Virus record (IMG/VR): IMGVR_UViG_3300022187_000025
Coordinates: 1 to 64,000 of that record
DNA from: a virus
DNA length: 64,000 nucleotides
Direction: 5' to 3' (one strand)
The stretch's first letter is position 1. The number at the start of each line of letters is the position of its first letter. Below the pieces are notes generated by a model that made no database searches, had not been told where the DNA came from, and was given only the letters and a program-made list of their open reading frames with translations. Below, in pieces: positions 2,391 through 55,139 of this stretch. Position numbers and translations under genes: made by a program.

Positions 2391-5300
2391 TATTTGCAAT
2401 AGAATCTAGAGTTCGTAGATGAGTAGTAGCAAGTAAAAAAATCAGAAGCTGTAAGTGACATTGGACTGGCAGCTTGTGGCATCTGTGTCTCATTTGCATA
2501 ATAAAAATTGCTGGGCCATCCAATCTCTTCCCCGTCTGCACCGATAAAGTGGAAAGTGTACACACCTCCGTTCTTTGGGTTCGTTACAGTTAAGTCTATT
2601 TGATCGTTTGTATCAGTAGAAGTTAGGCTTATTAGTTCAATGTGGTTTTGCTTGTTGCCTAAATTTACAGAATGCGTAGTTGCAGTTGGGCTTAATGTAG
2701 TGTCGTTAGGAGTTACAGCAATATCGTCTATAGCGTCTTGAACAGTAGTACTTGAAAGGCCACTGCTTGTTGTACTATAAGAGCTTTCTGCTGCTGTTAC
2801 AGTGCCGTCTGATAAATCAGATGGGATGTTTAATAAATCATCCCAATCATTAACTACTCTGGTTGTACCATTAGCTTGATACTGCAATTGGTTGTTATCA
2901 TAAAAAACCTCTCCATTAGAAGAAGGGCTATAAGTACCTGTAGCTTCAGGAAGGACTAATGCACCTCCGTCTGTCATACTTATGCCGGGAGTAGTCAATC
3001 CGTTTTTAATAATCTGGTCGTTAAGTATTAAAGGCTGAGTAAGTGTACTGGTTAAGAATTGATTGAAAGCTGCAATATTAGCTATGTTAGATATGTCAAT
3101 ACTAAAATCAGCAGCCCCATTTACTGTAATGTCAATCTCTTCATTTCCAGTATCTAACGTACCTGCTGTAGCTACACCATCTGGGTTACTTGAGCTAATA
3201 AAACGATCAAGCTTAACAGGAGCAACTTCATCAGTAGATGAATCAAAGCCTATTAAATAATCATACTCAGCTTGTGTTAAGCTATCGGCTACTTCAAAAT
3301 CCATAAAAATCAAATCTCCTTCAATTTCTAAAGAATCAGTTGTATTGCCAATTTTAATCATATCAGTTTCATTCCAAGTAAGTAAGGAACTACCTATAGC
3401 TGGAAGTCTTAAATCAGGGACAATCATATAACCGCTCCTATTCCCATCATCCAAACCAAAGCCATACACTTGGCCACTGCCATCAATCCAACGAAATATC
3501 AAACTATCCCCCGGAGCATTCGTACCATCTATTTCAAAAACGTGGTCAGTTAAATCCAATGTTGTTCTTTGAGTTAGTGTCCCTCCGAGATCAAAACTAC
3601 TGGAATTGTTTGTAATACCATTACCCGCTGTTATTGAATTTGCTGTTACATCGGAGTCAAGCTCATCAAGTGCATCTTTTACATTAGTTGCTGAAAGACC
3701 AGAATCTGCGTTGTCGTAGCTTACTTCTGCTGCTGTCTGATCGTCTGTACCAGTACCATCACCAAGACCTGCAAGGCTGATTGTATTTCCACTTGAAATA
3801 GATAAATTAGTTCCAGCAAGGCTTAAAGTCTGTAATTCATTTGAAGCATCTGCATCTGCATCATTGACTGCATCTGTAAAACTACCACCTCCATTAGATA
3901 GAGTTACAGTAGAACCTACCTTGCTAATAGTTTGTAATTCATTAGTTTCACTTTGGTCTACATTTGATAAATTTACAGTAAGCTCATTTATAGCACTACC
4001 TACATTAGTAGCAGATAAGCCTGATATGGAATTATCATAACTCACTTCAGATGCAGTTTGATCGTCTGTCCCCTCATTATCTATACCATCAGATAGACCA
4101 GTTGTACCTGTGAAATCTAAGCTTGTATAATTTCCATCAAAATCATCGCTTACATCAGTATCCCATCCTGAGAAACTAGGCATTAAATCTATGGAAGATA
4201 AATCAACATTAAAAGAACTTCCAGGAGAAGCTACATTTATTGTTAACAATTCAGTTCCTGAAGTAAAAGTACCTGACTCTGCTACTCCGTCAGAAGCACC
4301 TGATGCAATAGCTTGTAAATCAACTACTACCTCGTCAAGAGCTGTTTTTACATTTGTGGCATCTAGCCCTGATGCAGTATTATCGTAAGTTATATCAGCA
4401 GCAGTTTGACTTTCAATAATATCTAAAGTTATAATGTTTCCTGACTCATTTATTGTCATGTTAGAACCAACCTGAAGTGTTACATCAGTTGATCCAGAAG
4501 TGTTTGACCTAATAACTGATGTGTTCGATGCTCCCACGAGCACAGATAAACTTCCTTCATTGCTGATAGAGCCATCTACCTCAGATGTCAAATATGTAGA
4601 AGGGTCTGTCCCATTTATCGTGTTGACATTTGAAATGTCCTGAGTGTTGTTGATTTGAACACCTCCTATTGTAATATTATCAGTAAGAGTTACTACAGTA
4701 TTACTCGGTGTTGTTCCATTCCCATCGTAGATGCCATCTCCATCTGATCCTCCTTCTACGAGAGATTGCATATCAGAACCTATTTCCTGAAGTGCGCCTT
4801 CTATATTCCCACTTGTATAATAGCCAGATGCATCTTCTACTGGAATAATCCCTGCTTCAAGAAGTACGTTCTCCCATAAGCTATTTTGGTATCTTAGGAA
4901 TTGGCCTACTTCAAGGTTAGCTGTATCTATGTTTACGCCTGATACATCTTCAATCGCCGCAAACAAAGTAGGCCTTACAAACATAGTACCATTGTTTCCA
5001 GCAGATATAATAGCTGCAAATGGTATCTTTTGATTAGCTCCGGTAGGTTTAACCTTAGTATAACAGCCGGGGGTTGAAGCGTCCAGATATAAGATAATAG
5101 AGTCTCCCCATACTTCCGAATTACAGTTTAAGTCTGTATTATCATCGTCAAGCTCAATCCCTCTTACCTTGCCAAAAGGAGTGGCATATCCAACTTCATC
5201 ATTTAGTATCTCCTGAGTAGCTGCGCCAAAGTTGTAATACGAAGAATAGCTCCCGTCTGCAATTGCCGGAGCTACAAGTATTCTTCCTGAGTTACCTTCA

Positions 5301-6577
5301 GTGCCAACAAACCTAAGAGGTGTTCCATCTGGTATAGTAGAGCCTGTTTTGTTCTTAACAAGCACTGGCTGCTCTTGGCCAATTTGTAATACAGAGCCAT
5401 TAAGTAAGCCTAAGTCAAGTGTGCCTTCTTGGTCATTCCACGCTACTTCGCCTGGATTCTGTACTTCCTCTGTAGTGGAAGTATTAAAATATGCAATGTC
5501 TATGTCTGGAGTTAAGTCAATTTGTAGTTTCTGTAAGTAACTATTTGCATTTACAAACCAATAATCTCCTGTAGAATTATCCAATATAAGTCTTGAAACG
5601 TTTTTAACTAAAGAGTTTGAATCAGCAATAGTTGTTATGGTATCTATGGTATTTTCTTTAACCCATAATTTATGGGGTATATTTAAATCTCCAAAACCTG
5701 TTCTGGATGTGTAGTCATCTATATACTGAATACCACCGCCAAGTTGGTCAAAAAGTACCCCTTCTCTTGGGCTGGAGACTCCTACAGGTCCATACAGAGT
5801 TATTCCAAGAATATCATCTATAATAAACAAGCCTTGATCTGTAGTACTTTGTATCGCAAATCTATCAAAACCTGTAAGTGCCAACTGATTATCATTTGCA
5901 TTTATAAGTTTATTACCAGCGTTTACTTGTTGCTCAAAGTTCCTCATACCTGAAAAATAGTTGGTATTAGAAATTCTGATAAACAAACTATCATTGCTTA
6001 GTACAGTAGAAGGGCTAATACCTGATGCAGTATTAATACCTGTAAAGAACTCCATACCGTCTGCTAAAACAATAAACACACTGTCATTTCTAATAACATT
6101 AGAAGCGACTCCTGTAAGTGATAAACTGTCTAGTTGAAGCATATTGTGAGTTACAATGCACGCTTGTAAATCTTCAGGTAATTGATTAATATAAGGTATA
6201 AGCTTTAAAGTATCTGTTAAATCTACAAATGCAGCAACTCCTGTTGGTATAGTAGATAACTCTCCTGATAAATCTACTGCTGTACCCTGAATAACTGTAT
6301 TTCTTGCAAGTGGTTGCTGTATTTCTGTAATATTAGTAACAGGTAATTGATAGCATTTACCATCTGTAGCTACTATAATATTCAAGTTAGTATTTGTAGT
6401 ATCAAAGCCTGTACCAATAGTGTTGTTTCTAAAGATACCCTTAAAGTTAAAGTTAGGGCTTGAGCCACCAGTACGTGTAATAGGGCTTAGATAACCATTA
6501 AGTATGGTATCTAGCTGTTGAGCTTCAATAGATGTAAAACTCAATAATGCAATCAGTATGTATAAATATCTTTTCAT
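2390..6577 (-). CDS. Giant tail fibre / tail spike-like protein with repeats
   Basis: 1395 residues, the longest gene seen without an insertion. It opens with a signal-like segment MKRYLYILIALLSFTSIEA. From about residue 730 to 1290 there are four copies of a module with the core A-[AS]-[ED]-[VI]-[ST]-Y-D-N, S-G-L-[SD]-[AS]-T-[NT]-V and A-[IL]-D-[ED]; such GLxATNVqxAiDeL repeats are common in trimeric phage fibres. Composition is rich in Ser, Thr, Asn and Asp with few charged helices, as expected for beta-structured fibre. The start abuts the stop of the gene at 6578. Host receptor binding is inferred from family resemblance and from its place in the virion operon. Confidence 0.7.
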   Translation of the reverse strand: MKRYLYILIALLSFTSIEAQQLDTILNGYLSPITRTGGSSPNFNFKGIFRNNTIGTGFDTTNTNLNIIVATDGKCYQLPVTNITEIQQPLARNTVIQGTAVDLSGELSTIPTGVAAFVDLTDTLKLIPYINQLPEDLQACIVTHNMLQLDSLSLTGVASNVIRNDSVFIVLADGMEFFTGINTASGISPSTVLSNDSLFIRISNTNYFSGMRNFEQQVNAGNKLINANDNQLALTGFDRFAIQSTTDQGLFIIDDILGITLYGPVGVSSPREGVLFDQLGGGIQYIDDYTSRTGFGDLNIPHKLWVKENTIDTITTIADSNSLVKNVSRLILDNSTGDYWFVNANSYLQKLQIDLTPDIDIAYFNTSTTEEVQNPGEVAWNDQEGTLDLGLLNGSVLQIGQEQPVLVKNKTGSTIPDGTPLRFVGTEGNSGRILVAPAIADGSYSSYYNFGAATQEILNDEVGYATPFGKVRGIELDDDNTDLNCNSEVWGDSIILYLDASTPGCYTKVKPTGANQKIPFAAIISAGNNGTMFVRPTLFAAIEDVSGVNIDTANLEVGQFLRYQNSLWENVLLEAGIIPVEDASGYYTSGNIEGALQEIGSDMQSLVEGGSDGDGIYDGNGTTPSNTVVTLTDNITIGGVQINNTQDISNVNTINGTDPSTYLTSEVDGSISNEGSLSVLVGASNTSVIRSNTSGSTDVTLQVGSNMTINESGNIITLDIIESQTAADITYDNTASGLDATNVKTALDEVVVDLQAIASGASDGVAESGTFTSGTELLTINVASPGSSFNVDLSSIDLMPSFSGWDTDVSDDFDGNYTSLDFTGTTGLSDGIDNEGTDDQTASEVSYDNSISGLSATNVGSAINELTVNLSNVDQSETNELQTISKVGSTVTLSNGGGSFTDAVNDADADASNELQTLSLAGTNLSISSGNTISLAGLGDGTGTDDQTAAEVSYDNADSGLSATNVKDALDELDSDVTANSITAGNGITNNSSSFDLGGTLTQRTTLDLTDHVFEIDGTNAPGDSLIFRWIDGSGQVYGFGLDDGNRSGYMIVPDLRLPAIGSSLLTWNETDMIKIGNTTDSLEIEGDLIFMDFEVADSLTQAEYDYLIGFDSSTDEVAPVKLDRFISSSNPDGVATAGTLDTGNEEIDITVNGAADFSIDISNIANIAAFNQFLTSTLTQPLILNDQIIKNGLTTPGISMTDGGALVLPEATGTYSPSSNGEVFYDNNQLQYQANGTTRVVNDWDDLLNIPSDLSDGTVTAAESSYSTTSSGLSSTTVQDAIDDIAVTPNDTTLSPTATTHSVNLGNKQNHIELISLTSTDTNDQIDLTVTNPKNGGVYTFHFIGADGEEIGWPSNFYYANETQMPQAASPMSLTASDFFTCYYSSTNSRFYCK

Positions 6578-7159
6578 CTACTTCCAATCAAATTGAAGAA
6601 TATGGTTTGAAAAGTTCAAATTACCAAATCTAAGTGATATACTAGGGTTTGTACTATTACCTATACCTACGATGTCTACAGATGGGTTATTATCCTGATC
6701 TACTGAATAAGGATTACTAATACTTGGATTACCAAAATCTGCTAGTGTAGAACTAATCTTAGTTATAACCGGAGTAACAATATGTGAACTGGATGTATTA
6801 CCTGGAATACCTGCTCCTCTAAAAGTAATAGTTCTATATCCATCTACTACATTACTGTCAGTACCATGTACAATAAAACTCAAAGGCCTTTGTAAACAAG
6901 TAATAGTAACTTGTTCGTCACTGGCTCCACTCAGGTTTATAGTAGGTTTTTTATCAAAGTACTTAACATAAACTTTTGTAGTGCCTTCTGTAAGCAATAA
7001 CTCATAATCTGTTTCCTGATAAGTAATAATGTCGCTCTGGTCAATTCCATCCTGTACCATAGAGTATAGGCTTTTTACAGGTGGGTTAGGGCCAGCTATA
7101 GCTTCATTATTATTTTCTTCAAGAATAACAAACTTCTTTATGTAATATTGCTTACTCAT
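6578..7159 (-). CDS. Unrecognised virion-operon protein
   Basis: 193 residues, no recognised family. It is beta-rich in appearance, with many short hydrophobic stretches broken by Ser/Thr/Asn and one Cys near residue 88. It ends next to the fibre gene start without a gap, so the two are probably co-translated. A hairpin terminator lies just upstream (7165-7206), suggesting that this fibre unit has its own promoter or is reached by read-through. A tail or fibre-attachment role is a guess from position only. Confidence 0.6.
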   Translation of the reverse strand: MSKQYYIKKFVILEENNNEAIAGPNPPVKSLYSMVQDGIDQSDIITYQETDYELLLTEGTTKVYVKYFDKKPTINLSGASDEQVTITCLQRPLSFIVHGTDSNVVDGYRTITFRGAGIPGNTSSSHIVTPVITKISSTLADFGNPSISNPYSVDQDNNPSVDIVGIGNSTNPSISLRFGNLNFSNHILQFDWK

Positions 7160-14718: not shown

Positions 14719-17208
14719 TTAATCTGTACTACTTTTAGATTCAGATACAGCTTGTTGCTCTATATCTAACTTTCTATCCTTTTGAGCTAATTCTCTAAGT
14801 ACCTTAGTTGCTTCAAGCTCTTTAGGTATTTCATCAGCATCAGTTTTAAGCTGATTCTGAAGAATAATTTTATCAATCTCATGTGATTGCTCATCCTCAA
14901 CCTGCTGTCTTTTAGCTTGCTGTAATCTAGCAGCATTTTCTCCTCTCATTTTTTCCATCTGCTGTCTACGCTGCTCTTGTTCCCGTGCAGCTATCATAAT
15001 CATCTTATGTACTTCAGATGGAGCTTTCTTACTGGTAATAGCTCTAATCAATGTACTGAGTGTTTCTACACCTTCACCAGCATTTTGAGCAATAGCTTGT
15101 GCTTGTCCAAGCATAATTTGTCTGTAATCATCATCAGACTGATTACTAGTCAAGAACAATCCTATATCACCATACCCAAGATATTCAGGCATTACTCTGA
15201 GTACCTGCTTGGTATTGTCTGGAGTAACATAGTGCAGCATAGTAAACTCAGTATCATCATTTTCTTCAAAGAAATTCTGATAATACATTCTAAATTGAGC
15301 AAGATATTCAGCTGAAATAGATCTCCATAGTTCTGAGTGTTCTATCATATACCACTCAATCATAGTAAAACCTTGCTGAAGAGCACGTTGATTATCAGAT
15401 GCATTTGAGTTAGCACTAAATTGACCTTCTGCCTGTAATGGTACAAGCATAGAGAAACCAATCTCTCTATCAATCAGGTCAAGCAGTTGTTGCATATTAA
15501 TAATCTCACCCATAGCTCCAGCTACTTCTGGTCTTACAGCAGCAGTACGTTGTGGATTGGGTAAACCCATAGAGTTCTGTGAGCCAGAATAATAACTGTC
15601 TCCAAGCACTCGTCTGTAATATCTCCAAATAGCAAGCTTATCTACACCAATACTTTCTCCATTCTCATCCAGTTCAAGATAATCTGGTATTTGATCTATG
15701 TCAATATTCTTAATGTAACCTTCATACTTAGCTATCTCTTTGCTTTGTAGGTTCTTAATCAGATTGTACTGAAACTGAGCAGGAATAGCTCTACCTACAA
15801 GACTAATAGACTCAGAGTTAACATTAGTATATATTCTACCTTTATAACTTAGCTCAAAGCTACCGTAAGGATCATCTAAATTGATAGGCTGATTAGGTAC
15901 TTCACGATAGTTTAAATATACATCTTGTCCAAGACGAGTAATTTCATACCTTCTTGGTATCCATATTTGTTCAGCCACATATGGTACACTATTCTCTACC
16001 CATTCAAACTTAGTAGCTTTTCTACCATATCTGTTTGTGTATTTAACTTTTGTAGCTTCTTCTGGTATTTCATAGCCTTTAGGATGTACTTCAGTTTGTA
16101 GCTCTCCATACTCATTAGGATAGCTCAGGAATATAAGTTCTCTAAATGCCTTGAACTCAAAATGAGTCTTGAATACAAGACGCTCATTATTATACCTTCT
16201 ATTTGTACCAGAACCCTGTGCTTGCCCAACTGTTTTATGCTGAGTATCTTGCAGATGCAAGCCAAGCTCAAAACTGGTTGGGTCATAAGTAACCTTTGGA
16301 TTGCTTCCTCCAATAACATTATGCCTGTCATTAACAGCCAGGCTTGAACTATATGTGTACGTGCCAAGACGTTCTATCTGTTCTTGCGTAAGCTCATCAC
16401 CATAGAGATTCATAATCTCAGCCATAGTCAAAGCTACTCTAGTCCAGGCATAATCTCCTTTCTCTATTCTGTATTCATCCGGGCTTTTATGAAAGCCAAA
16501 ATGTAAAGGATTGATAACAGTAATACCGGGTTTTCCATAGTGCTCTCCTACATAACATATTTCTCTGTCAGAAGTAATTGCATGTTTCCAGCCTAAGCTC
16601 ATTTTACGTACAACTTCCTCTGAGTAGTTAAAATACTCTAATACCTGATTAGCAAATATCTCAAGGCTGGATTTAAAATCTTGTGCTATTTCAGCTGGGT
16701 CAGGTGTAGACTGCATTTCCTGCACATAATCATTAGCTTCTATCTGACTTGCACCAGCCATAGCCATATCTGTCTGTTCAAACTTCAGCAGCATTCTTTC
16801 AATGACAGCCTTTCTGATTTCTTTAGATAGTTCTTCATTAAACTTTCTAACTGCTTCCTGACTGATAAAACTTGCATGGTAGTTGTCTCTACGCTTAAGC
16901 ATTTCACCATTCAAGTAACTATATTTAGAGAATATTCTATTATAGTGTATAATCTCTTCGTCAATATCTATTTCCTGGCTAAGCTCATTTGGTATATTGA
17001 CTCTACAGAACTCTTTGAGAGCTTCTCTAAAACCGTCGATGCGATCATTGATGACATCATACCATAGCTTCATCTGTTTGTAGTTATGCACTACAGTAGT
17101 ATCATAAGGCACAATATAGTCCAGATAATCTCTGAACCACTCACCATCTTTTTTGTATTTCTCAATCTCAGATACTCTAAGTCTGTATATAGGTTCAAAA
17201 TAACTCAT
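14719..17208 (-). CDS. Portal protein
   Basis: 829 residues, the large size typical of crAss-like portals. It directly follows the large terminase with a 4-base overlap (17205-17208). The central region (about 190-480) is mixed alpha/beta, and the C-terminal 130 residues form a long Gln/Glu/Lys/Arg-rich helix with EQEQRRQQMEKM and similar heptads, as in the barrel/crown of portal rings. It would form the dodecameric DNA channel that docks the terminase. The identification is from order, length and architecture; I see no short diagnostic motif. Confidence 0.75.
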   Translation of the reverse strand: MSYFEPIYRLRVSEIEKYKKDGEWFRDYLDYIVPYDTTVVHNYKQMKLWYDVINDRIDGFREALKEFCRVNIPNELSQEIDIDEEIIHYNRIFSKYSYLNGEMLKRRDNYHASFISQEAVRKFNEELSKEIRKAVIERMLLKFEQTDMAMAGASQIEANDYVQEMQSTPDPAEIAQDFKSSLEIFANQVLEYFNYSEEVVRKMSLGWKHAITSDREICYVGEHYGKPGITVINPLHFGFHKSPDEYRIEKGDYAWTRVALTMAEIMNLYGDELTQEQIERLGTYTYSSSLAVNDRHNVIGGSNPKVTYDPTSFELGLHLQDTQHKTVGQAQGSGTNRRYNNERLVFKTHFEFKAFRELIFLSYPNEYGELQTEVHPKGYEIPEEATKVKYTNRYGRKATKFEWVENSVPYVAEQIWIPRRYEITRLGQDVYLNYREVPNQPINLDDPYGSFELSYKGRIYTNVNSESISLVGRAIPAQFQYNLIKNLQSKEIAKYEGYIKNIDIDQIPDYLELDENGESIGVDKLAIWRYYRRVLGDSYYSGSQNSMGLPNPQRTAAVRPEVAGAMGEIINMQQLLDLIDREIGFSMLVPLQAEGQFSANSNASDNQRALQQGFTMIEWYMIEHSELWRSISAEYLAQFRMYYQNFFEENDDTEFTMLHYVTPDNTKQVLRVMPEYLGYGDIGLFLTSNQSDDDYRQIMLGQAQAIAQNAGEGVETLSTLIRAITSKKAPSEVHKMIMIAAREQEQRRQQMEKMRGENAARLQQAKRQQVEDEQSHEIDKIILQNQLKTDADEIPKELEATKVLRELAQKDRKLDIEQQAVSESKSSTD

Positions 17209-20200
17209 TGTCCTATTCGTTGTTTAAGGAATTTTGACATTTTACTGAAAGGATTATTCTGTCTGGATAAGCCCTCTTTGATATTGTGCTCAATCTCTCC
17301 AAGTGCCAGTGGTAACCCCATCATACTAGATACTGCGTCATAGTTCCCTTTAAGTGTATAATCTCTTATTTGACGTATTGTAAATATACAAGGTATCCTA
17401 AATATATTTTTTTCAACCTCGTCATTAATATCTGTCTCTTCAAGCAACCAATCATTAAGCCTGTCAAGCATTGATATCTTACTGACTTGGCTACCTACAA
17501 CAAATCCAGTCTTTGTTGTATTCTTCAGATATATATGCTGTCCTTGTTCAAACTGAGGCTGAAGACATAACAGATATGCTTTATTCTTTTTAATAAAGTG
17601 TGATCTAAGCCTATCCCCTCTGTTTGATTCATACCATAATTGCCTCATAGGATTACCATAAAAAGCAAGCATTTTTTCAAGTACCTGATTATAACCATCA
17701 AGACCATTTTTATTCTTGCCTATATAGGTAGCTGCAAGGCAATTACCCTTAGCACCGTAAGGTATATATTTAGGATTAATCCATACGTGAGTTACACCAA
17801 GAGATCCACCTTCGTCAAAAGCATCAGATACATAAGGGTCATGTGTAAAGATATGAGCATCAATAGGTATCTTACCATTTATCCTAAAAGGCTGCTCATA
17901 CATCATTACAGCTCCTTCAAGAGATTCCTTATCTTGTAAGTTATCGTCATAGATTGGATAAGCTGTAGGGTCAACCTCATAATTAACTCCGTCTGGATGA
18001 TTGTTATCCCAAAATAGACTAATAGGCGTACCTATAGACTCATACAAGTTGTTTTTTAATAGTTGTTTTTCTCGTAGTTCAGCTTCTTTACCAGGAAGTA
18101 GTTGGCCTTCTGAAGCTATCCACATATGCTCTATCTCTGTAGGATAGTTCATTTTCCAGTTATTAATAATAGCTGGATCGTTAGTGCGTAGCTTCTCTTC
18201 CAGTTTGTCATCGTAATACTTCTTAGCTTTAGCCAGATTAGTATTACCATTCTTGTCTTTAAATCTTTTATCTACTATATATGCAGGCAAAAAGAAACAA
18301 TGCTTTTCACCATCTTTACCTTTATATCCTATACAGTTATAGTCATCAGGATGAGTAAATATCTTTTGTGCAGCTTTAATAGTGTGTATATTACCAGATG
18401 TACCTACACCTATTCTGGGAGCAAACTGTACACCATCTACACTTACAACAGCTTCGTCAGAACCCCATGCATTTAATAAATCTTCAAACAGACCTATCTC
18501 CTCATACATTATTAAAGAACGTCTACCACCTGCACCTGATTCAGCACCTGTACGTTTGTTAGCAGAATAACTTACATGGTATACTGTACTGCCTGTACCT
18601 CTTTCTTCCCATGCACTACCTACTTTAACAGAAAATTTATTAGTCCATCCTCTTTCATCATCTGTATCAAAGCTTCCCGTCATCTCCTTATAGAAAGGAC
18701 AAGGTTCCCAATCATCATCTCCAATCTTACCCCATGTACCTGCTTCTGGGCTAGTTTTAAGGAAGTTAGAACTAATCTTCATAAAAGCCAGCGTCTTTGC
18801 AGATTTACCTTTAATACCTGCACCTACATTTATAAGTATCTGGTTTGGGTTACGTATAATTTGCTCATTGTAAACTTTAGCTCCATCAAATGTTATATCG
18901 TAGAATACTTCTGCCAGTATATGGTACAGCGATTTCCCGCCACCTCTGCAATTATGTACTACAGTATAGTCTTTTAGCAAATATAAATTATCTTGATCTA
19001 CTTCTATTCCATAATATGTATCATAAGAATACTTTTCTATATTTATAACATTTTTATTAGAACCTTTACTGTTTTTGTAAACTCTAACAGGAGCTTTCTT
19101 TCTTTTTATCTTACAAGGTATTCTACCTATTTCTCCATAAATTCTAAGATTGTAATTAGCATTATTTTTAATACTTACTCTTCTGGAATTTATAGTAGTT
19201 CTGTAACCTAATGACCAGCAAAGTTCTTCAACCTGCTTAATTAGATTAAAATCAGAATTACAAAAAGTATACCTATGCATCTTTTTAGAATAATTCCCGT
19301 CAGAGTCTAGTAATCCTGCTAATAGTTCTAATCTTTGGTCTATAGAAGACTGTAGATATTCTATTGGAATATGTTTGTTATTCCTAAAAGTTTTTGACCA
19401 ATAATTATTTTTATAGAGCATAGTTTTGTCTATAAGCCTAAACCTATAGACATTCATATCCCCAAAAGAACCTTGATTAGAAGCTAGCTTTATGTTATAA
19501 GAAAACCTTTCAGGATCAGACTTAGCATATCCAATTAGCCATCTTTTTATTTCTATTTCGTTTTCTGCAAAGCATATTAATTTTTCTCTTTTAAAACCAT
19601 CTCCTAACCAAAGGCCTATAAAATAAGGATGAAGTTTTAAATCTTTTTTATCATACTCTATCGGTACTGCTGTTACTCCTCTATATTTAGCGTTACAATT
19701 TTTATAGCTCGTTTTAAATTTATTATATAGTTTTTCTGTTTCTATATTTATTCTTTTTAAACTACCTTTTCTTCTAACAGTGGAAACTTTATCTAAATGA
19801 AGTAAATGCTTAGAGTTTACAATATAAGGTTCTCTTTTTGCTTGAGTTACTTTATAAAGTTGATCTTCTCCTGTAAATAAGTTTTTAACTATTCTAGGAG
19901 TAGAATCAGGCCCCATTAATCTGTCTCCTATTTCTACATCCTCTATATTTTTAAGACTTCCGTCATACATACGTACCTGTGTGCCTTTACCGTGGCAACC
20001 CAAAATTGTTACGTTCTTAGCATCATTATTATACAATGGAATACCTACAGGATTATCATGTCTTTTAGCTATATTCTCTAGAGGCTCTATAAATTCTTTG
20101 AATGTTCCATCAGACTTATACAGGCATAACTCATTATCTTCAGGAAACTTAGTCTTATTTATATTAAATACTCTAAAATCTGATGTGTATTTATCATCTT

Positions 20201-20519
20201 CACTAAATCCAGAGAAACCTCTGGCTACTCCTACATTATAACTATAGTGCCACTCCAAGTCTCTAATAAGAGGCTTAATCAGCTTACCATGTGTCTTATT
20301 AACTTTATCTACATCAGGTATTCTACAATAATGATGATAGAATCCAAGGTTACCTCTGCCATATCTCCATCCTCCAAAGTCTTCAAACCATGTACCTTCA
20401 ATACATCTGCGTTTCATTTCACGCCAAAACTTTAACCAGCGTGGGTCATCTGGATGTATAAGTTGTGGTTTAAACTGATCTGTAAACCTAGATAAATCCT
20501 CTGTTTTAATCCAATTCAC
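17205..20519 (-). CDS. terL: Terminase large subunit interrupted by an intein
   Basis: 1104 residues as translated; 755 after removal of a 349-residue intein (175-523). The joined extein gives the Walker A loop G-C-R-G-G-G-K-S. Walker B with the catalytic Glu is in RSLIMYEEIGLF. Downstream, THDPYVSDAFDEGG supplies the first acidic residue expected in the RNase H-like nuclease. The enzyme packages DNA and cuts concatemers. The start is GTG, overlapping the stop of the upstream gene. The P-loop is split by the intein, so ATPase activity should depend on splicing. Confidence 0.9.
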   Translation of the reverse strand: MNWIKTEDLSRFTDQFKPQLIHPDDPRWLKFWREMKRRCIEGTWFEDFGGWRYGRGNLGFYHHYCRIPDVDKVNKTHGKLIKPLIRDLEWHYSYNVGVARGFSGFSEDDKYTSDFRVFNINKTKFPEDNELCLYKSDGTFKEFIEPLENIAKRHDNPVGIPLYNNDAKNVTILGCHGKGTQVRMYDGSLKNIEDVEIGDRLMGPDSTPRIVKNLFTGEDQLYKVTQAKREPYIVNSKHLLHLDKVSTVRRKGSLKRINIETEKLYNKFKTSYKNCNAKYRGVTAVPIEYDKKDLKLHPYFIGLWLGDGFKREKLICFAENEIEIKRWLIGYAKSDPERFSYNIKLASNQGSFGDMNVYRFRLIDKTMLYKNNYWSKTFRNNKHIPIEYLQSSIDQRLELLAGLLDSDGNYSKKMHRYTFCNSDFNLIKQVEELCWSLGYRTTINSRRVSIKNNANYNLRIYGEIGRIPCKIKRKKAPVRVYKNSKGSNKNVINIEKYSYDTYYGIEVDQDNLYLLKDYTVVHNCRGGGKSLYHILAEVFYDITFDGAKVYNEQIIRNPNQILINVGAGIKGKSAKTLAFMKISSNFLKTSPEAGTWGKIGDDDWEPCPFYKEMTGSFDTDDERGWTNKFSVKVGSAWEERGTGSTVYHVSYSANKRTGAESGAGGRRSLIMYEEIGLFEDLLNAWGSDEAVVSVDGVQFAPRIGVGTSGNIHTIKAAQKIFTHPDDYNCIGYKGKDGEKHCFFLPAYIVDKRFKDKNGNTNLAKAKKYYDDKLEEKLRTNDPAIINNWKMNYPTEIEHMWIASEGQLLPGKEAELREKQLLKNNLYESIGTPISLFWDNNHPDGVNYEVDPTAYPIYDDNLQDKESLEGAVMMYEQPFRINGKIPIDAHIFTHDPYVSDAFDEGGSLGVTHVWINPKYIPYGAKGNCLAATYIGKNKNGLDGYNQVLEKMLAFYGNPMRQLWYESNRGDRLRSHFIKKNKAYLLCLQPQFEQGQHIYLKNTTKTGFVVGSQVSKISMLDRLNDWLLEETDINDEVEKNIFRIPCIFTIRQIRDYTLKGNYDAVSSMMGLPLALGEIEHNIKEGLSRQNNPFSKMSKFLKQRIGQ
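18951..19997 (-). mobile_element. LAGLIDADG intein inserted in the terminase P-loop
   Basis: Begins with Cys (CHGKGTQVRMYDGSLKNIED is block A) and ends in VVHN, followed by Cys of the C-extein. Block B appears as VNSKHLLHL with Asn where Thr is usual before the His. The endonuclease part has LHPYFIGLWLGDG and LELLAGLLDSDG. Block F is DNLYLLKDYTVVHN. All residues needed for Cys/Asn/Cys splicing (C1, penultimate His, terminal Asn, C+1) are present. Removing the region restores an intact Walker A motif. Confidence 0.92.
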
Positions 20520-29351: not shown

Positions 29352-29455
29352 AAAGAAGTGGCGGAATTGGTAGACGCACGGTAGGAAACGGGCTAAGTAC
29401 TTGAGAGGTAAGTGATAATCTTAGCCAATTGCAGGTTCAAGTCCTGCCTTCTTTA
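29352..29455 (+). tRNA. tRNA-Leu-like gene (anticodon probably GAG), atypical anticodon region
   Basis: Acceptor AAAGAAG pairs with CTTCTTT. The D-arm GCG-GAATTGGTAGA-CGC is that of class II tRNA-Leu. The T-arm is GCAGG-TTCAAGT-CCTGC, with no encoded CCA. The 53-base centre is longer than usual by about 20. TTGAGAG gives a GAG anticodon with U33, but only a 3-bp TAC/GTA stem directly around it. Farther out GGCTAAG pairs with CTTAGCC over 7 bp, so the anticodon stem would be extended with a 3' bulge. It may be a functional variant, an interrupted tRNA or a decaying one. Confidence 0.55.
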
Positions 29456-50678: not shown

Positions 50679-50829
50679 TGGTAAGTGCAGAGCACATAAG
50701 CTTCTTAACTGTCCTACCTGCAATCCAGATAATGGAGCTAACAAGATTATTCGAGATACAGAGTCTAAATTCAAAAGGCTTAAGCTCAAACGTATAAAGA
50801 AACCAGATGAGTCTACCAAAGATAGTTAA
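50662..50829 (+). CDS. Small zinc-binding-like basic protein
   Basis: 55 residues. C-R-A-H, then C-P-T-C, is a possible CHCC zinc site; the second half is very basic (S-K-F-K-R-L-K-L-K-R-I-K-K). It overlaps both neighbours by 17-23 bases. Confidence 0.5.
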   Translation: MKFKISGKCRAHKLLNCPTCNPDNGANKIIRDTESKFKRLKLKRIKKPDESTKDS

Positions 50830-51487
50830 CAAGGATTGGCATGAGTTAAATATATGGTCTGATATAGATAATATACGAGAGAAGCTAAGTACAGTTTCTT
50901 TTGTTCCAGAAGCCTCTGATATATTTAGGGGCTTTTCTATTAGTCCAAAGTCTATACGTGTAGTTATAGTAGGTCTGGCTCCATACAATACAGTGCTTGC
51001 AGATGGTAGAGCATTAGCTACAGGTATACCATTTGATGTACCTAAAGGCTACGATAGACCTAGTTTAGAGATAATCAGAGAATGTTTATGGAATGACTAC
51101 AATGATATTAGATCAGAGTGTACCAGAATATCTGATTGGTTAGACCAAGGTGTATTCTTATTAAACAAGTCATTGACTTGTACTCCATTTGGAGAAGCCA
51201 GGTCACACATGCATATATGGAATACATTTACAGAGTCAGTTATAGTTGAATTAGATAGGTTGTTTAACAGTATAGTGTTTGTATTCTTAGGTAAAGATGC
51301 CCAAGAATTAAACAAGCATGTATCAGCTAGAAATTACATACTGAATTACTGCCATCCAGCAGCTACTGTATATGCTAAACAAAGAGGTAATGTACCTGCT
51401 CATTTAGATTTCACTAAGAGTGAGATGTTTAAGAGCATAGATGAGATTACCTATAACATAGATCAGACCACTATCAAGTGGTTTTAA
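50807..51487 (+). CDS. Uracil-DNA glycosylase-like protein
   Basis: 226 residues. The fold motifs are V-V-I-V-G-L-A-P-Y-N-T (motif 1), D-W-L-D-Q-G-V-F-L-L-N-K-S-L-T, V-F-V-F-L-G-K-D-A-Q, and Y-C-H-P-A-A-T-V-Y-A-K-Q-R-G (motif 2 His). In family 1 enzymes motif 1 is G-Q-D-P-Y-H; here the catalytic Asp is Ala and His is Asn, while family 5 enzymes have G-L-A-P. crAss-like phages usually carry a UDG next to the primase. It may be a catalytically different glycosylase or an inactive DNA-binding relative. Confidence 0.75.
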   Translation: MSLPKIVNKDWHELNIWSDIDNIREKLSTVSFVPEASDIFRGFSISPKSIRVVIVGLAPYNTVLADGRALATGIPFDVPKGYDRPSLEIIRECLWNDYNDIRSECTRISDWLDQGVFLLNKSLTCTPFGEARSHMHIWNTFTESVIVELDRLFNSIVFVFLGKDAQELNKHVSARNYILNYCHPAATVYAKQRGNVPAHLDFTKSEMFKSIDEITYNIDQTTIKWF

Positions 51488-51514: not shown

Positions 51515-52057
51515 ATGCGTACTATTAAAGTATTTTCCACTCGCAATGGATCAACTACTCCTATCCAGACAGATGTAACCACATTTGGAGAGTTGAAAGA
51601 AGTTCTGGATGCTAATGACATTGAGTTCAACAGCTCTCTGAAAGCTATTGAGTCTGTCAACAATACAAGCCTTGAGCTTAACAACTCAGCTCTACCTGAA
51701 GGAGATTTTATCTTGGGCTTGTTTCCAAAGAAAACTAAAGCAGGCAGCTTGCGTACAGATTTGTATACTCGTATTAAAGAGTTTATTCAGCGTGATGGAA
51801 AAGAGGCTGTCAATAACTTCTTTAATGAGCAGGCAGGGCGTCACTACACTAACATTAGTACTGAAGATTTGGAAAGCTATGTTGACCAGTATGATACTGA
51901 GCAAACAACTCCAGCTACTCTTGAAGAGAAACTTCGTGCATGTGGAGTAGATCCTACTATTATTGAGAAAGTTATTGGCATGTCTACAGATGAGCGTACA
52001 GAGGAAGAAGCTTGGGCAGAAGAGATTTGTTCAGCACATGATGAGCTTTCTTGCTAA
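51515..52057 (+). CDS. Ubiquitin-like beta-grasp protein with C-terminal extension
   Basis: 180 residues. Residues 1-77 follow the beta-grasp plan: hairpin R-T-I-K-V-F-S-T with P-I-Q-T-D-V, helix F-G-E-L-K-E-V-L-D-A-N, strand A-I-E-S-V-N, last strand G-D-F-I-L-G-L-F followed by P-K-K-T-K-A-G. PRTRC-C-like ubiquitin homologues have a similar fold and T-K-G ending. After Gly77 comes a 103-residue acidic helical extension. A JAMM peptidase encoded two genes on could cut after Gly to expose a conjugable end; that is inference. Confidence 0.6.
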   Translation: MRTIKVFSTRNGSTTPIQTDVTTFGELKEVLDANDIEFNSSLKAIESVNNTSLELNNSALPEGDFILGLFPKKTKAGSLRTDLYTRIKEFIQRDGKEAVNNFFNEQAGRHYTNISTEDLESYVDQYDTEQTTPATLEEKLRACGVDPTIIEKVIGMSTDERTEEEAWAEEICSAHDELSC

Positions 52058-52078
52058 GAATTTCTTATAAAATATTAG

Positions 52079-52107
52079 GCAGAGGTGTAACAGCCTCTGC
52101 TTATTTT
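52079..52107 (+). terminator. Hairpin terminator after the ubiquitin-like gene
   Basis: GCAGAGG and CCTCTGC with a short loop, followed by TTATTTT. Partial termination would give more modifier than enzymes. Confidence 0.65.
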
Positions 52108-52121
52108 AAATAAGTGAAAAC

Positions 52122-53036
52122 ATGATTGAAGAATTTTTTGGAGAAGATAATGTAGATGAAAATGGTAGTGAGTATACAATAGAACTGGATGATTTTTATG
52201 TACATAATAAAAGAGGAGATAAACATCTTATTAAAGGTATGTACTTACGGCTTAATTATTATACTCAAGAGGATAAGCATTATTTGAGAAATCTTCAAGG
52301 CATTAGGACTATTCAGTCTAATATAGAATGGTATACAAGTTTTACTCATCCACATTTACCTACTCGTAGAATTAATGCTATAGAGTTTGAAGATTTTTGT
52401 AAAGGCGATGGGGCATTTAGTATGCAGTACGCTCAGGTAAATTCAGGAGTTACAGAAGATGAAATGTATGCTTTTCTAATGCACTTGCGTTACTTTCTGA
52501 CTTATCAGGATGACAGTAACCCATATACCAGAATAGAGAATGTTTTTCCTATTACTACTCCTCCTGAGTATTCTTATTTTCCACAGCTTAGAGACACTCT
52601 ATACGACTATCCTCAAATACAAAAACTTATATTTGACAAGGATTATCAACTGGTAGATAATAAACATAACCATGATTTACTACTTGAAATCTATGAAGGT
52701 TCAGCCCCTACATGCCATTATATTAATGGAGAGTATGTAGCATTTAATTATGCTACTTCTAAAGTAGTACTTGACCCATTTGTAGTATTATGGTTTAAAG
52801 GAAAACCTGTACAAGGACAAATATATCAGCAGGAAACAAGTGTTAAGCCAGAGGAAGGCAGCCTACGTATTAATCCATCTATATTTAAAATAATCAGTAA
52901 TGAACTCAGTAAAAAGCTTCGAGAGCAAATCTCAGAAGAAAGCATTAAAGCAAGTCAGCAAGAAGCAACGCTTTTCATTGACAGTATCAGACAAATGTCT
53001 GAACCAGATCAAGTATTTATGCTCAAGAATTTCTAA
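52122..53036 (+). CDS. E2-like (UBC/RWD-fold) protein candidate
   Basis: 304 residues. At 73-99 the segment S-F-T-H-P-H-L-P, then F-E-D-F-C-K-G-D-G, recalls the H-P-H-[VIL] and C-x-G stretch of prokaryotic E2-like proteins in ubiquitin-like and PRTRC operons; Cys93 would be the thiol-accepting residue. N-terminal strands (E-Y-T-I-E-L-D-D-F-Y-V, Y-L-R-L-N-Y) fit the UBC sheet. The C-terminal 130 residues are an extra domain. It lies between the modifier and the JAMM gene, as E2 genes do in such cassettes. Confidence 0.5.
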   Translation: MIEEFFGEDNVDENGSEYTIELDDFYVHNKRGDKHLIKGMYLRLNYYTQEDKHYLRNLQGIRTIQSNIEWYTSFTHPHLPTRRINAIEFEDFCKGDGAFSMQYAQVNSGVTEDEMYAFLMHLRYFLTYQDDSNPYTRIENVFPITTPPEYSYFPQLRDTLYDYPQIQKLIFDKDYQLVDNKHNHDLLLEIYEGSAPTCHYINGEYVAFNYATSKVVLDPFVVLWFKGKPVQGQIYQQETSVKPEEGSLRINPSIFKIISNELSKKLREQISEESIKASQQEATLFIDSIRQMSEPDQVFMLKNF

Positions 53037-53955
53037 AGTAGAATGGTCTGGTATTTTATTCTATACAGTAGATAAAGGAGACATAGAATCAGAGAATCTG
53101 GAAATGACAGCTGAGTTTGTTTATCCTATGTCTAAAGATACTACAGCTGCTACAGGTTTTGAATACAACGAAGATGTTATGCAATTTATGATGCAACATC
53201 CAGAGTGTATGAACATGCGACAGGGTATGATACACAGCCATCACAGTATGAATTCCTATTTCAGTCAGACTGATATGTCAGAGCTTGCAGATAATTGCGA
53301 AAATCATCAATTTTATTTAAGCATGGTAGTTAACAATGCTACTGATATAGTAGCTAAAGTAGGTATACATGTAGAGCAAGAGTATAAAATTCATGGTAGT
53401 AGAAATTTAATGGGTATGAAAGGTAAATTAAGATTGCCTTTTACACAAACTATCAAAGAGACTGTACTGGAACATTATGATTGTGATATTTATACTTATG
53501 AACCTGAAGTAGAGAAATGGTTTAAAGATAGAACAGATAAGATTATAGAAGATGCTAAGCCTAAGAAGGTCGTTGGTTTTAATAGTCCAAAAGAGTTTGT
53601 TAGTTCAGCATGGACTTGGGATAACGTAGCATCTGACTTACGCCCTTACAATACTTCTAATGAAGCTATCTTTATTGCCAAATATCTTAAGGGTGATTTA
53701 GATTATGATGGTACTATTTATAAAGCACTTGAAGAAATTAATAAGTCTACTCAAGAAAAAGATAAGTTCATTCAGGCTATGGTAGAAGGCTTTGATTATT
53801 TCTATGATGAGTTTTTTGAGACTGATGGGCATCAACTGGATGTACTATCTAAACTAAGCTACTATCTGGATCAATGGCAACAGAAATTCAGAAAAGCACA
53901 TGACATTATGTATTCAGTAATTACAGAATTAACAACAGGATATGAACCACGATAG
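52900..53955 (+). CDS. JAMM/MPN+ metallopeptidase (deubiquitinase-like)
   Basis: 351 residues from ATG 52900, which overlaps the previous gene by 137 bases; a TTG at 52978 (325 residues) would cut this to 59. The JAMM signature is complete: Glu48 in V-E-W-S-G, then I-H-S-H-H-S-M-N-S-Y-F-S-Q-T-D with His112, His114, Ser122 and Asp125. Such zinc peptidases cut ubiquitin-like proteins after the terminal Gly. The C-terminal 180 residues are unrecognised and acidic. Placement between E2-like and E1-like genes supports the modifier-processing role. Confidence 0.8.
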   Translation: MNSVKSFESKSQKKALKQVSKKQRFSLTVSDKCLNQIKYLCSRISKVEWSGILFYTVDKGDIESENLEMTAEFVYPMSKDTTAATGFEYNEDVMQFMMQHPECMNMRQGMIHSHHSMNSYFSQTDMSELADNCENHQFYLSMVVNNATDIVAKVGIHVEQEYKIHGSRNLMGMKGKLRLPFTQTIKETVLEHYDCDIYTYEPEVEKWFKDRTDKIIEDAKPKKVVGFNSPKEFVSSAWTWDNVASDLRPYNTSNEAIFIAKYLKGDLDYDGTIYKALEEINKSTQEKDKFIQAMVEGFDYFYDEFFETDGHQLDVLSKLSYYLDQWQQKFRKAHDIMYSVITELTTGYEPR

Positions 53956-54580
53956 TTTTAAAGGAGCAAGCTGGTACGATGATATTCGTAAACAACAAGT
54001 ACTTGTAATAGGTGCAGGTGGAACAGGCTCATGGCTAACTCTATTATTAGCCAGAGCTGGAGTTACAAACCTGGCTGTATATGACGATGATTTGATAGAG
54101 TCCAGAAATAATAGTGGGCAATTTTTTAAACTTAATCAGGTTGGACAACCCAAAGTTGAAGCTTTGAAAACCAACGTGAAAGAGTTTACAGATGTAGAGA
54201 TAATCACATTGCAAGAGAAGTATACAGCTAATTCTATGGTAGCACCTATTATGTGTAGTATGGTAGACAATATGGCTACACGAAAGATTGCATTTGATAA
54301 ATGGAAGAGATATGAGAATAAGAGTTTGTTTATAGATGTCAGACTAGACTTTGAACAGTCAGATATATTTATTGTAGATGAATCGAGTATAGAAAAGTAT
54401 GAGAGTACACTGTTTGATGATTCAGAAGTAACTGATCCAGTCTGTACTATGAAGCAGACTACTCATATTGCATTCCATGTAGCGCATGCTGTAGAAGGAT
54501 TAATTAACTATGTAGCTGGCAGACCGTATAAATTTAGAACTACTAATGTAACATCGATGAGTTATGTGGAGTTTGAATGA
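53942..54580 (+). CDS. E1-like (ThiF/MoeB family) activating enzyme
   Basis: 212 residues. The Rossmann nucleotide site is V-L-V-I-G-A-G-G-T-G-S (20-30), then Y-D-D-D-L-I-E-S-R-N-N with Asp and Arg for ATP, Q-V-G-Q-P-K-V-E-A-L, and C-S-M-V-D-N-M-A-T-R with the conserved D-N. Cys168 in D-P-V-C-T-M-K could form the thioester. It is shorter than most ThiF proteins (about 240). It overlaps both neighbours, so the cassette is tightly coupled. Adenylation of the modifier at 51515 is the expected reaction. Confidence 0.8.
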   Translation: MNHDSFKGASWYDDIRKQQVLVIGAGGTGSWLTLLLARAGVTNLAVYDDDLIESRNNSGQFFKLNQVGQPKVEALKTNVKEFTDVEIITLQEKYTANSMVAPIMCSMVDNMATRKIAFDKWKRYENKSLFIDVRLDFEQSDIFIVDESSIEKYESTLFDDSEVTDPVCTMKQTTHIAFHVAHAVEGLINYVAGRPYKFRTTNVTSMSYVEFE

Positions 54581-55139
54581 AGTATATTATCGTAGAAGAA
54601 GCTATGATTACGAAAAAGCAGTAGCAGATTATTGTAATGTTACATCCAGATTATGGCATCCTGTATGGTTTGAGGCACTTGCTGACGCTAGTGTTTATAA
54701 GTTTCCTAATAGAGACATGATTTCAGACAGAATTGGATATAGTTATAATAATATTCAAGGAGTCTTTATTAGTAAATATAATAAGTTGTACAGAACTATA
54801 GACAGATTAGATAACAGGTTTTATATAGGTCGTGGATATATAGCTAATAACAATGGTACAGGTTTGCTTGTATGCAGGAATGCTATAAATAAATCTATAC
54901 GTATCTATGTCAGTTATGAGTTTGTTAGTAAAGACTCAATGTATAAGAACTTATACAAGAGAGTTAATGATGAGTTTATCCTGCCACATGTAGCTCAGGG
55001 AGCACAGTTTCTTGTTGTAAAAAGTATAGAGGATATATTTATAGACAAAATACCATCTCCTGAGTTTAAAGACTTTGCAGAGATGCAGAACTATTATAGT
55101 AGTCTTGGTAAATTAATTTACAATGGCGAGCCGCAATAA
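54564..55139 (+). CDS. Unrecognised protein of the ubiquitin-like cassette
   Basis: 191 residues, Tyr-rich and beta-like, overlapping the E1-like gene by 17 bases. No family recognised; R-L-W-H-P-V-W-F-E-A-L and F-L-V-V-K-S-I-E-D-I-F-I are notable. Being coupled to the E1 it may be a specificity factor or target, or belong with the nuclease that follows. Confidence 0.5.
   Translation: MWSLNEVYYRRRSYDYEKAVADYCNVTSRLWHPVWFEALADASVYKFPNRDMISDRIGYSYNNIQGVFISKYNKLYRTIDRLDNRFYIGRGYIANNNGTGLLVCRNAINKSIRIYVSYEFVSKDSMYKNLYKRVNDEFILPHVAQGAQFLVVKSIEDIFIDKIPSPEFKDFAEMQNYYSSLGKLIYNGEPQ

Follow-up and report, generated by a model that had tools for sequence, protein, structure and literature searches.

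In prokaryotes, complete pathways for the conjugation of ubiquitin-like (Ubl) proteins are known from operons of bacteria or plasmids, and several of these operons are antiphage defences. In the Bil/type I and related Bub operons, Ubl, E2, JAB and E1 activities occur together in one operon, that of Bil being carried by the defending bacterium, and the plasmid-borne PRTRC operons have the order Ubl, E2-like, JAB, ThiF. The operon of row 6d in Iyer et al. 2006 encodes a Ubl, a JAB, an E1-like enzyme, an E2-like protein without an upstream His, and a helical protein (PMC1779556). Phages of the Lambda/T1 type have a Ubl (TAPI) accompanied by the JAB enzyme TAPK in tail assembly (PMC1779556). Here we analyze a cassette in a crAss-like phage, located in a 64,000-nucleotide stretch (the window) of the 69,182-base virus record IMGVR_UViG_3300022187_000025, whose four core genes encode a ubiquitin-like modifier, an E2-like protein, a JAMM peptidase and an E1-like enzyme of the ThiF family. 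We consider it quite probable that the cassette specifies a phage-native, self-contained and reversible pathway of Ubl conjugation that operates within infected cells, since the gene order is kept in about 85 phage loci, the catalytic positions are invariant, the modifier has the expected fold and the genes are present or absent jointly. The features of the cassette are the following.

51515-54580, plus strand: ubiquitin-like cassette of a crAss-like phage, four core genes
51515..52057, plus strand: ubiquitin-like modifier precursor, 180 amino acids (AlphaFold2, Foldseek, invariance of Gly77)
51515-51745, plus strand: β-grasp domain of the modifier, residues 1-77 (AlphaFold2, Foldseek)
51743-51745, plus strand: codon of the invariant Gly77
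Residues 78-180 of the modifier, plus strand: helical extension, 103 residues (AlphaFold2)
52058..52121, plus strand: gap of 64 bp between the modifier and E2-like genes
About 52076-52103, plus strand: terminator-like hairpin, then a T-rich tract
52122..53036, plus strand: E2-like protein, 304 amino acids (conserved motif, gene order)
52347-52355, plus strand: H76-P-H78 motif of the E2-like protein
52398-52400, plus strand: candidate catalytic Cys93 of the E2-like protein, within C-x-G
52900..53955, plus strand: JAMM/JAB metallopeptidase, 351 amino acids, with the full E / HxH / S..D site
53233-53241, plus strand: H112-S-H114 of the JAMM enzyme, which go with E48, S122 and D125
53942..54580, plus strand: ThiF/E1-like activating enzyme, 212 amino acids (Pfam ThiF)
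Residues 24-30 of the ThiF enzyme, plus strand: GAGGTGS motif
54443-54445, plus strand: candidate catalytic C168 of the ThiF enzyme, in PVCTMKQTT
54564..55139, plus strand: fifth cassette gene (g5), 191 amino acids, overlapping the end of the ThiF gene

The four assignments had been proposed in a first-pass annotation made from the sequence alone; each open reading frame and motif that it named lies where it was placed, and the assignments have survived every test made. The span that it gave, up to 55139, includes the fifth gene, which is absent from its description. Of the overlaps that it described, those of the E2-like with the JAMM gene and of the JAMM with the ThiF gene are present, but the modifier and E2-like genes are separated by the 64-bp gap.

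The cassette is common to a lineage of crAss-like phages and is no peculiarity of one phage. A tblastn search initiated with the ThiF protein matched 83 GenBank phage records, of which 29 are Flavobacterium phages; the rest are Bacteroides phages, among them crAss001, DAC15 and PhiCrAssBcn, and a small number of distant phages. All GenBank phage records that were opened have the order modifier, E2-like, JAMM, ThiF and fifth gene, and the cassette is present in cultured phages, viz., crAss001 (gp79-gp75), DAC15 and Flavobacterium phage Fpv2. Among 2.9 million viral contigs, 80 cassette loci were found, which come from varied samples, and profiles of the modifier, E2-like and JAMM proteins match nearly all loci with full-length flanks. 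The same search of 84,980 bacterial and archaeal species genomes, with a pattern that can miss divergent copies, found two small contigs only, one of which is phage DNA with primase, cassette and uracil-DNA glycosylase (UDG) side by side (L102) and the other a contig of 3.7 kb (L101). Thus, as far as these collections show, the cassette is phage-restricted, and we rejected its origin as a bacterial defence island acquired by a phage, given only these two relatives, one of them itself phage DNA. When profiles of the E1, JAMM and E2-like proteins were run over 18 complete crAss-like records, eight had all three, ten had none and no record had a partial set. The positive records belong to Steigviridae, Fipvunavirus and bajarodcaudo virus 1, and the negative ones include Cellulophaga phage phi14:2, cr108_1 (also Steigviridae), Suoliviridae and Intestiviridae. 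A crAss-type capsid match was found in 10 of 12 cassette records checked, the two without it being two short contigs. The mean identity of the cassette protein families is 23-41%, and over 69 loci the four genes show correlated pairwise distances (0.62-0.78), as expected of co-inheritance.

The first-pass annotation had set beforehand that the product of the first gene should fold as a β-grasp, and its AlphaFold2 model (predicted local distance difference test score, pLDDT, of 90) does so, with the topology strand, strand, helix, strand, strand. Foldseek searches with this model against the PDB retrieved ubiquitin, SUMO1, NEDD8 and a Bacteroides fragilis ubiquitin-like protein with a probability of 1.00. 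The Gly77 and 103-residue extension described earlier were likewise borne out: Gly77 is present in 73/73 relatives (here and below, conserved residues were counted over about 70 non-identical relatives), preceded by Ser or Ala, and only Leu60 and Gly77 are invariant in a 62-row alignment. The model has low confidence at residues 71-80, including Gly77, followed by a confident helical extension, which varies widely in length and content among relatives, with a short helical motif common to most. The window modifier matches no curated family, and a Pfam scan of the 62 members gave scattered matches only. In an 86-kb distant relative (L087) the modifier is only 71 residues long and its last residues are ...TKTKLG, with the stop exactly at the conserved Gly, and that of L058 ends ...KQTKSGE followed by a stop; therefore the extension is dispensable and Gly77 is the natural end of the working domain. 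An 82-residue modifier (...KSGNEKKH in L039) was rejected as a natural mature form because the gap that follows resembles displaced coding sequence. Two oddities of the modifier gene may be recorded here. In L053 (3307-4242) a ribosomal protein L7/L12 C-terminal domain lies inside the extension (3.1e-10), and in cr106 (L006 3749-4282 / L048) an HNH endonuclease gene directly follows the modifier's Ser-Gly codons, an insertion not counted as an intron as it has no Rfam signal.

The assignment of the fourth gene to the ThiF/E1 enzymes with GAGGTGS and Cys168 holds (Pfam ThiF, 1.2e-21). C168 is invariant in 77/77 relatives, and GxGG, D48, D50, K71 and D109 are invariant or nearly so. Against the PDB, the best matches of the E1 profile are MccB and UBA5, the latter itself a small E1, ahead of ThiF/MoeB; Cap2 and BubCD are also matched. 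The fifth gene follows the ThiF gene in 63 loci, and its product has no Pfam match and no credible PDB match.

The E2-like protein has the H76-P-H78 motif and Cys93 that had been proposed for it. His78 and Cys93 are present in 72/72 relatives and Gly95 in 72/73, and only His78, Cys93, Gly95 and Pro134 are invariant in a 57-row alignment, the pattern being Y/F-x-H-x-H, a variable loop and then C-x-G (FTHPHL...FCKG in the window, YMHSHV...PCTG in crAss001). Known E2 enzymes carry HPN...ICL and LL..PN..DP elements. The distant relative L087 has two E2-like homologues (family E-values of 1.2e-10 and 3.1e-10) with FIHPH...LCLG and FLHPH...LCLG, followed by FLKTEN.EDCY and FLETENVGDTY, respectively, and these sequence motifs resemble the elements of known E2s. 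In the AlphaFold2 model of the window protein (pLDDT 86.7), a helix and then a strand meander precede the HxH-Cys loop and helices follow it, an arrangement compatible with a UBC-like fold. Based on the conserved Cys, the HxH/HPH motif, the gene order and the more canonical distant relatives, an E2-like function is likely, though the UBC fold, for which motif and context are the grounds, is the least secure assignment of the cassette. The window protein matches no curated family, and a direct search with it in GenBank phages gave no matches, the relatives emerging only via synteny and profiles; significant Foldseek matches of its model to viral structures are to crAss-like relatives only. As side observations, the second E2-like paralogue of L087 (8296-9279) lies after the fifth gene, and four loci (L072, L076, L079, L084) encode E2-like proteins of about 690 residues, nearly twice the usual length, the extra part of which has no Pfam match in the two that were scanned.

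The E2-like gene also bears on a reading in which the modifier is a ThiS/MoaD/Urm1-like sulfur carrier that is adenylated by ThiF and thiocarboxylated by a sulfurtransferase for phage nucleotide or tRNA modification, with the JAMM enzyme freeing the Gly as in known ThiS/MoaD-JAB fusions. A ThiF-family enzyme, a Ubl and a JAB do occur in sulfur-assimilation clusters (PMC1779556), the modifier ends in a single Gly and not Gly-Gly, and nucleotide-metabolism genes adjoin the cassette. However, sulfur carriers need no E2, whereas here every set includes an E2-like protein whose Cys is invariant and which comes and goes together with the other genes; the annotated neighbours include no recognisable sulfurtransferase or rhodanese, and MccB and UBA5 precede ThiF/MoeB among the PDB matches of the activating enzyme. 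We therefore regard a sulfur carrier as quite improbable. Reference genomes label the cassette genes as ‘thiamine biosynthesis protein’, ‘metalloprotease’ or ‘hypothetical’, and the first of these annotations was rejected on account of the E2-like gene.

The third gene encodes the complete JAMM peptidase that had been predicted, with E48 (70/70), H112 (71/72), H114 (70/70), S122 (72/72) and D125 (72/72) all there. The window copy matches Prok-JAB (0.0021) under the family cut-off; the curated family that most JAMM members match is PRTRC_A (TIGR03735; 28/60), for which the window copy scores 13.4 against a cut-off of 101.8 bits, and the JAMM profile matches CSN5 weakly (E-value of 0.24). The gene is interrupted within the HSH codons or immediately ahead of them (...GLIH / SH) in L019, L061, L075, L066 and Fpv2 (L001). 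A group I intron model matches the break above threshold in the first three, and below the gathering score in Fpv2 (1.8e-9) and L066 (9e-9). These introns occupy a single site, may be derived one from another and are not five independent events. In L040 it is the E2-like gene that is split, at ...YMH / SH, by a group I intron. Phage introns tend toward the most conserved, functionally essential codons, and the intron sites thus provide an independent pointer to the same JAMM and E2-like residues.

A terminator after the modifier gene, noted in the first-pass annotation, is real, with a minimum free energy of -19.5 kcal/mol and a z-score of -4.55. A hairpin with a T-rich tail occurs between the modifier and E2-like genes in 47/58 loci with unrelated sequences, against 0.85 loci expected from shuffles and 21/200 of the remaining gaps of these loci. 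Partial termination at this hairpin is predicted to give modifier in excess over the enzymes, as any Ubl pathway needs.

We propose that translation yields a modifier precursor that would be cleaved behind Gly77, the JAMM enzyme being the simplest candidate for this cut. The small ThiF enzyme, judging from its family and the invariance of its residues, would adenylate the Gly and load the modifier on Cys168, from which it would be passed to Cys93 of the E2-like protein. The latter may need no dedicated E3 to join the modifier to target-protein amines, and the JAMM enzyme may also remove it. The terminator, through partial read-through, would set a high ratio of modifier to enzymes.

Several observations weigh against such a pathway. 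No E3 candidate was found. Most modifiers keep a folded, partly conserved extension, and their Gly would need a cut to be free. Gly59 is present in 77/77 phage E1s where the PRTRC ThiFs compared have a loop Arg (‘GRQ’, E1/MoeB ‘xRQ’). In MoeB the equivalent Arg contacts ATP, and with Gly59 in all phage copies the adenylation chemistry may therefore differ. In Fpv2 and some others the intron-split JAMM gene needs splicing to work. None of the 57 E2-like members matches a Pfam E2 family, the Pfam matches being scattered only, and the E2-like model has no significant PDB match in Foldseek, its first two distinct targets being the RWD protein CENP-O (E-value of 0.17) and the UBC protein UFC1 (0.39). 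Of the UBC fold and conserved Cys93 anticipated for this protein, the conservation of Cys93 is upheld and the fold is putative.

The relation to PRTRC sets proposed at first pass stands for the E1, the JAMM enzyme and the gene order, but not as membership. The phage E1 and PRTRC ThiF profiles align with an hhalign E-value of 4.5e-15, with the Cys aligned, and a profile comparison of the phage JAMM with PRTRC_A gives 2.3e-5. However, none of the families TIGR03735-TIGR03738 reaches its cut-off in the phage cassette (the window ThiF scores 40.7 bits against 144.75 for TIGR03736), and the genome record has no TIGR03737 (PRTRC_B) match. The phage modifier, with its 103-residue extension, has no similarity to the small, stand-alone Ubl PRTRC_C (hhalign 0.087). 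The E2-like protein has the invariant His78 before Cys93, whereas PRTRC_B has no His before the Cys and a conserved His after it, and their alignment is not significant (hhalign 0.046) though Cys-x-Gly is aligned. PRTRC operons moreover carry ParB, E and helical F, unlike the cassette, which has UDG, primase and nuclease as neighbours and is borne by a phage and not a plasmid. Membership in PRTRC was thus rejected on the Ubl, E2-like and ParB/E/F features, and we conclude that among bacterial Ubl systems the cassette forms a phage branch that is related yet distinct.

The cassette shares the four activities of the Bil and Bub operons, and its E1 profile matches BubCD (1.6e-4), but unlike Bil it is carried by the phage and its modifier has a single β-grasp domain with a helical extension. 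The type II cyclic oligonucleotide-based antiphage signaling system (CBASS) has a cGAS-like gene, Cap3 and a fused E1-E2, Cap2, to which the phage E1 is similar by profile, and the phage JAMM weakly matches PADLOC JAB models; in contrast, the phage E1 and E2-like proteins are encoded by separate genes along with a dedicated β-grasp modifier, and no cGAS-like match was found among the cassette genes. In eukaryotes, the UFM1 pathway (UBA5-UFC1) has its E1 among the best profile matches and its E2 as the second, not significant, Foldseek target of the E2-like model, a resemblance that is an analogy at most, with no evidence of descent.

Such matches of the ThiF protein to Cap2/E1-E2 and weak ones of the JAMM protein to CBASS JAB models, and the existence of bacterial Ubl-type defences with the same enzyme classes (PMC10097602), would suit a cassette that counters Ubl-type immunity of bacteria (CBASS Cap2/Cap3, Bil), for example with a decoy modifier or a JAMM enzyme that cuts host conjugates. 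We consider this unlikely: a complete E1-E2 relay with all catalytic residues kept is more than a decoy or protease alone needs, and anti-defence genes are typically variable, whereas this set descends together with the replication genes as one block and hardly occurs in bacteria.

The window has a GC content of 35%, and the crAss-type phage families matched by its capsid, portal and terminase place it in the Crassvirales. Another record, IMGVR_UViG_3300034374_005666 (103,255 bases), has ThiF and capsid genes identical to those of the window. Replication genes lie on the plus strand and structural genes on the minus strand, and the cassette is surrounded by primase, helicase, nuclease and UDG genes, its immediate neighbours in family scans being the following.

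50807-51487: UDG gene, upstream neighbour of the cassette (Pfam and family scans)
At 55123 and 55526: recombination nuclease genes, downstream neighbours of the cassette (family scans)

The UDG gene is located 3' of the cassette in the gut phages, and 5' of it in Fpv2 as in the window. This setting favours replication or repair proteins, or targets of host takeover, over virion proteins, and action during replication seems the better reading. Modification of virion or assembly proteins of the phage itself appears highly improbable: Ubl-JAB pairs are known from tail-assembly genes of lambdoid phages (PMC1779556), and TAPI too is a phage Ubl with a C-terminal Gly beside a JAB enzyme, but that pair lies among tail genes with no E1 or E2, whereas the cassette is in the replication block, on the strand opposite to the structural genes. 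The main texts that deal with crAss001 virions do not report gp76-79.

More tentatively, and as a possibility somewhat short of probable, we suggest that a virus lineage may hold its own modifier, E1, E2 and deconjugase in its core replication programme, switching phage or host replication proteins with a system that evolves with the phage and was not taken from the host. If the conjugation pathway is true, it would be owned by a phage lineage with abundant human-gut viruses among its members, viruses would be using their own protein tagging against bacteria, and the cassette would represent an unusually small natural E1-E2 system. No report of the phage cassette was found in open papers, an absence that is no proof of novelty. 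As the relatives in crAss001, DAC15 and Flavobacterium phage Fpv2 are cultured, the prediction is directly testable.

Xanthomonas phage PhiXhv-12 (L010, 227 kb) has a separate Ubl-like set that consists, in order, of a 140-residue protein ending KASGG (2751-3173), an 892-residue protein with IHPHM...GSLCLG (3253-5931) and a ThiF enzyme (5944-6627); no JAMM was seen in it, and its E2-like region has no PDB match. Elsewhere in the window, a tRNA-like Rfam match of 104 bases (29352-29455; 38.8 bits) has no ARAGORN call, and the terminase large subunit (17205-20519) has 1104 amino acids, with two terminase families matching separate halves, which possibly reflects an insertion such as an intein.

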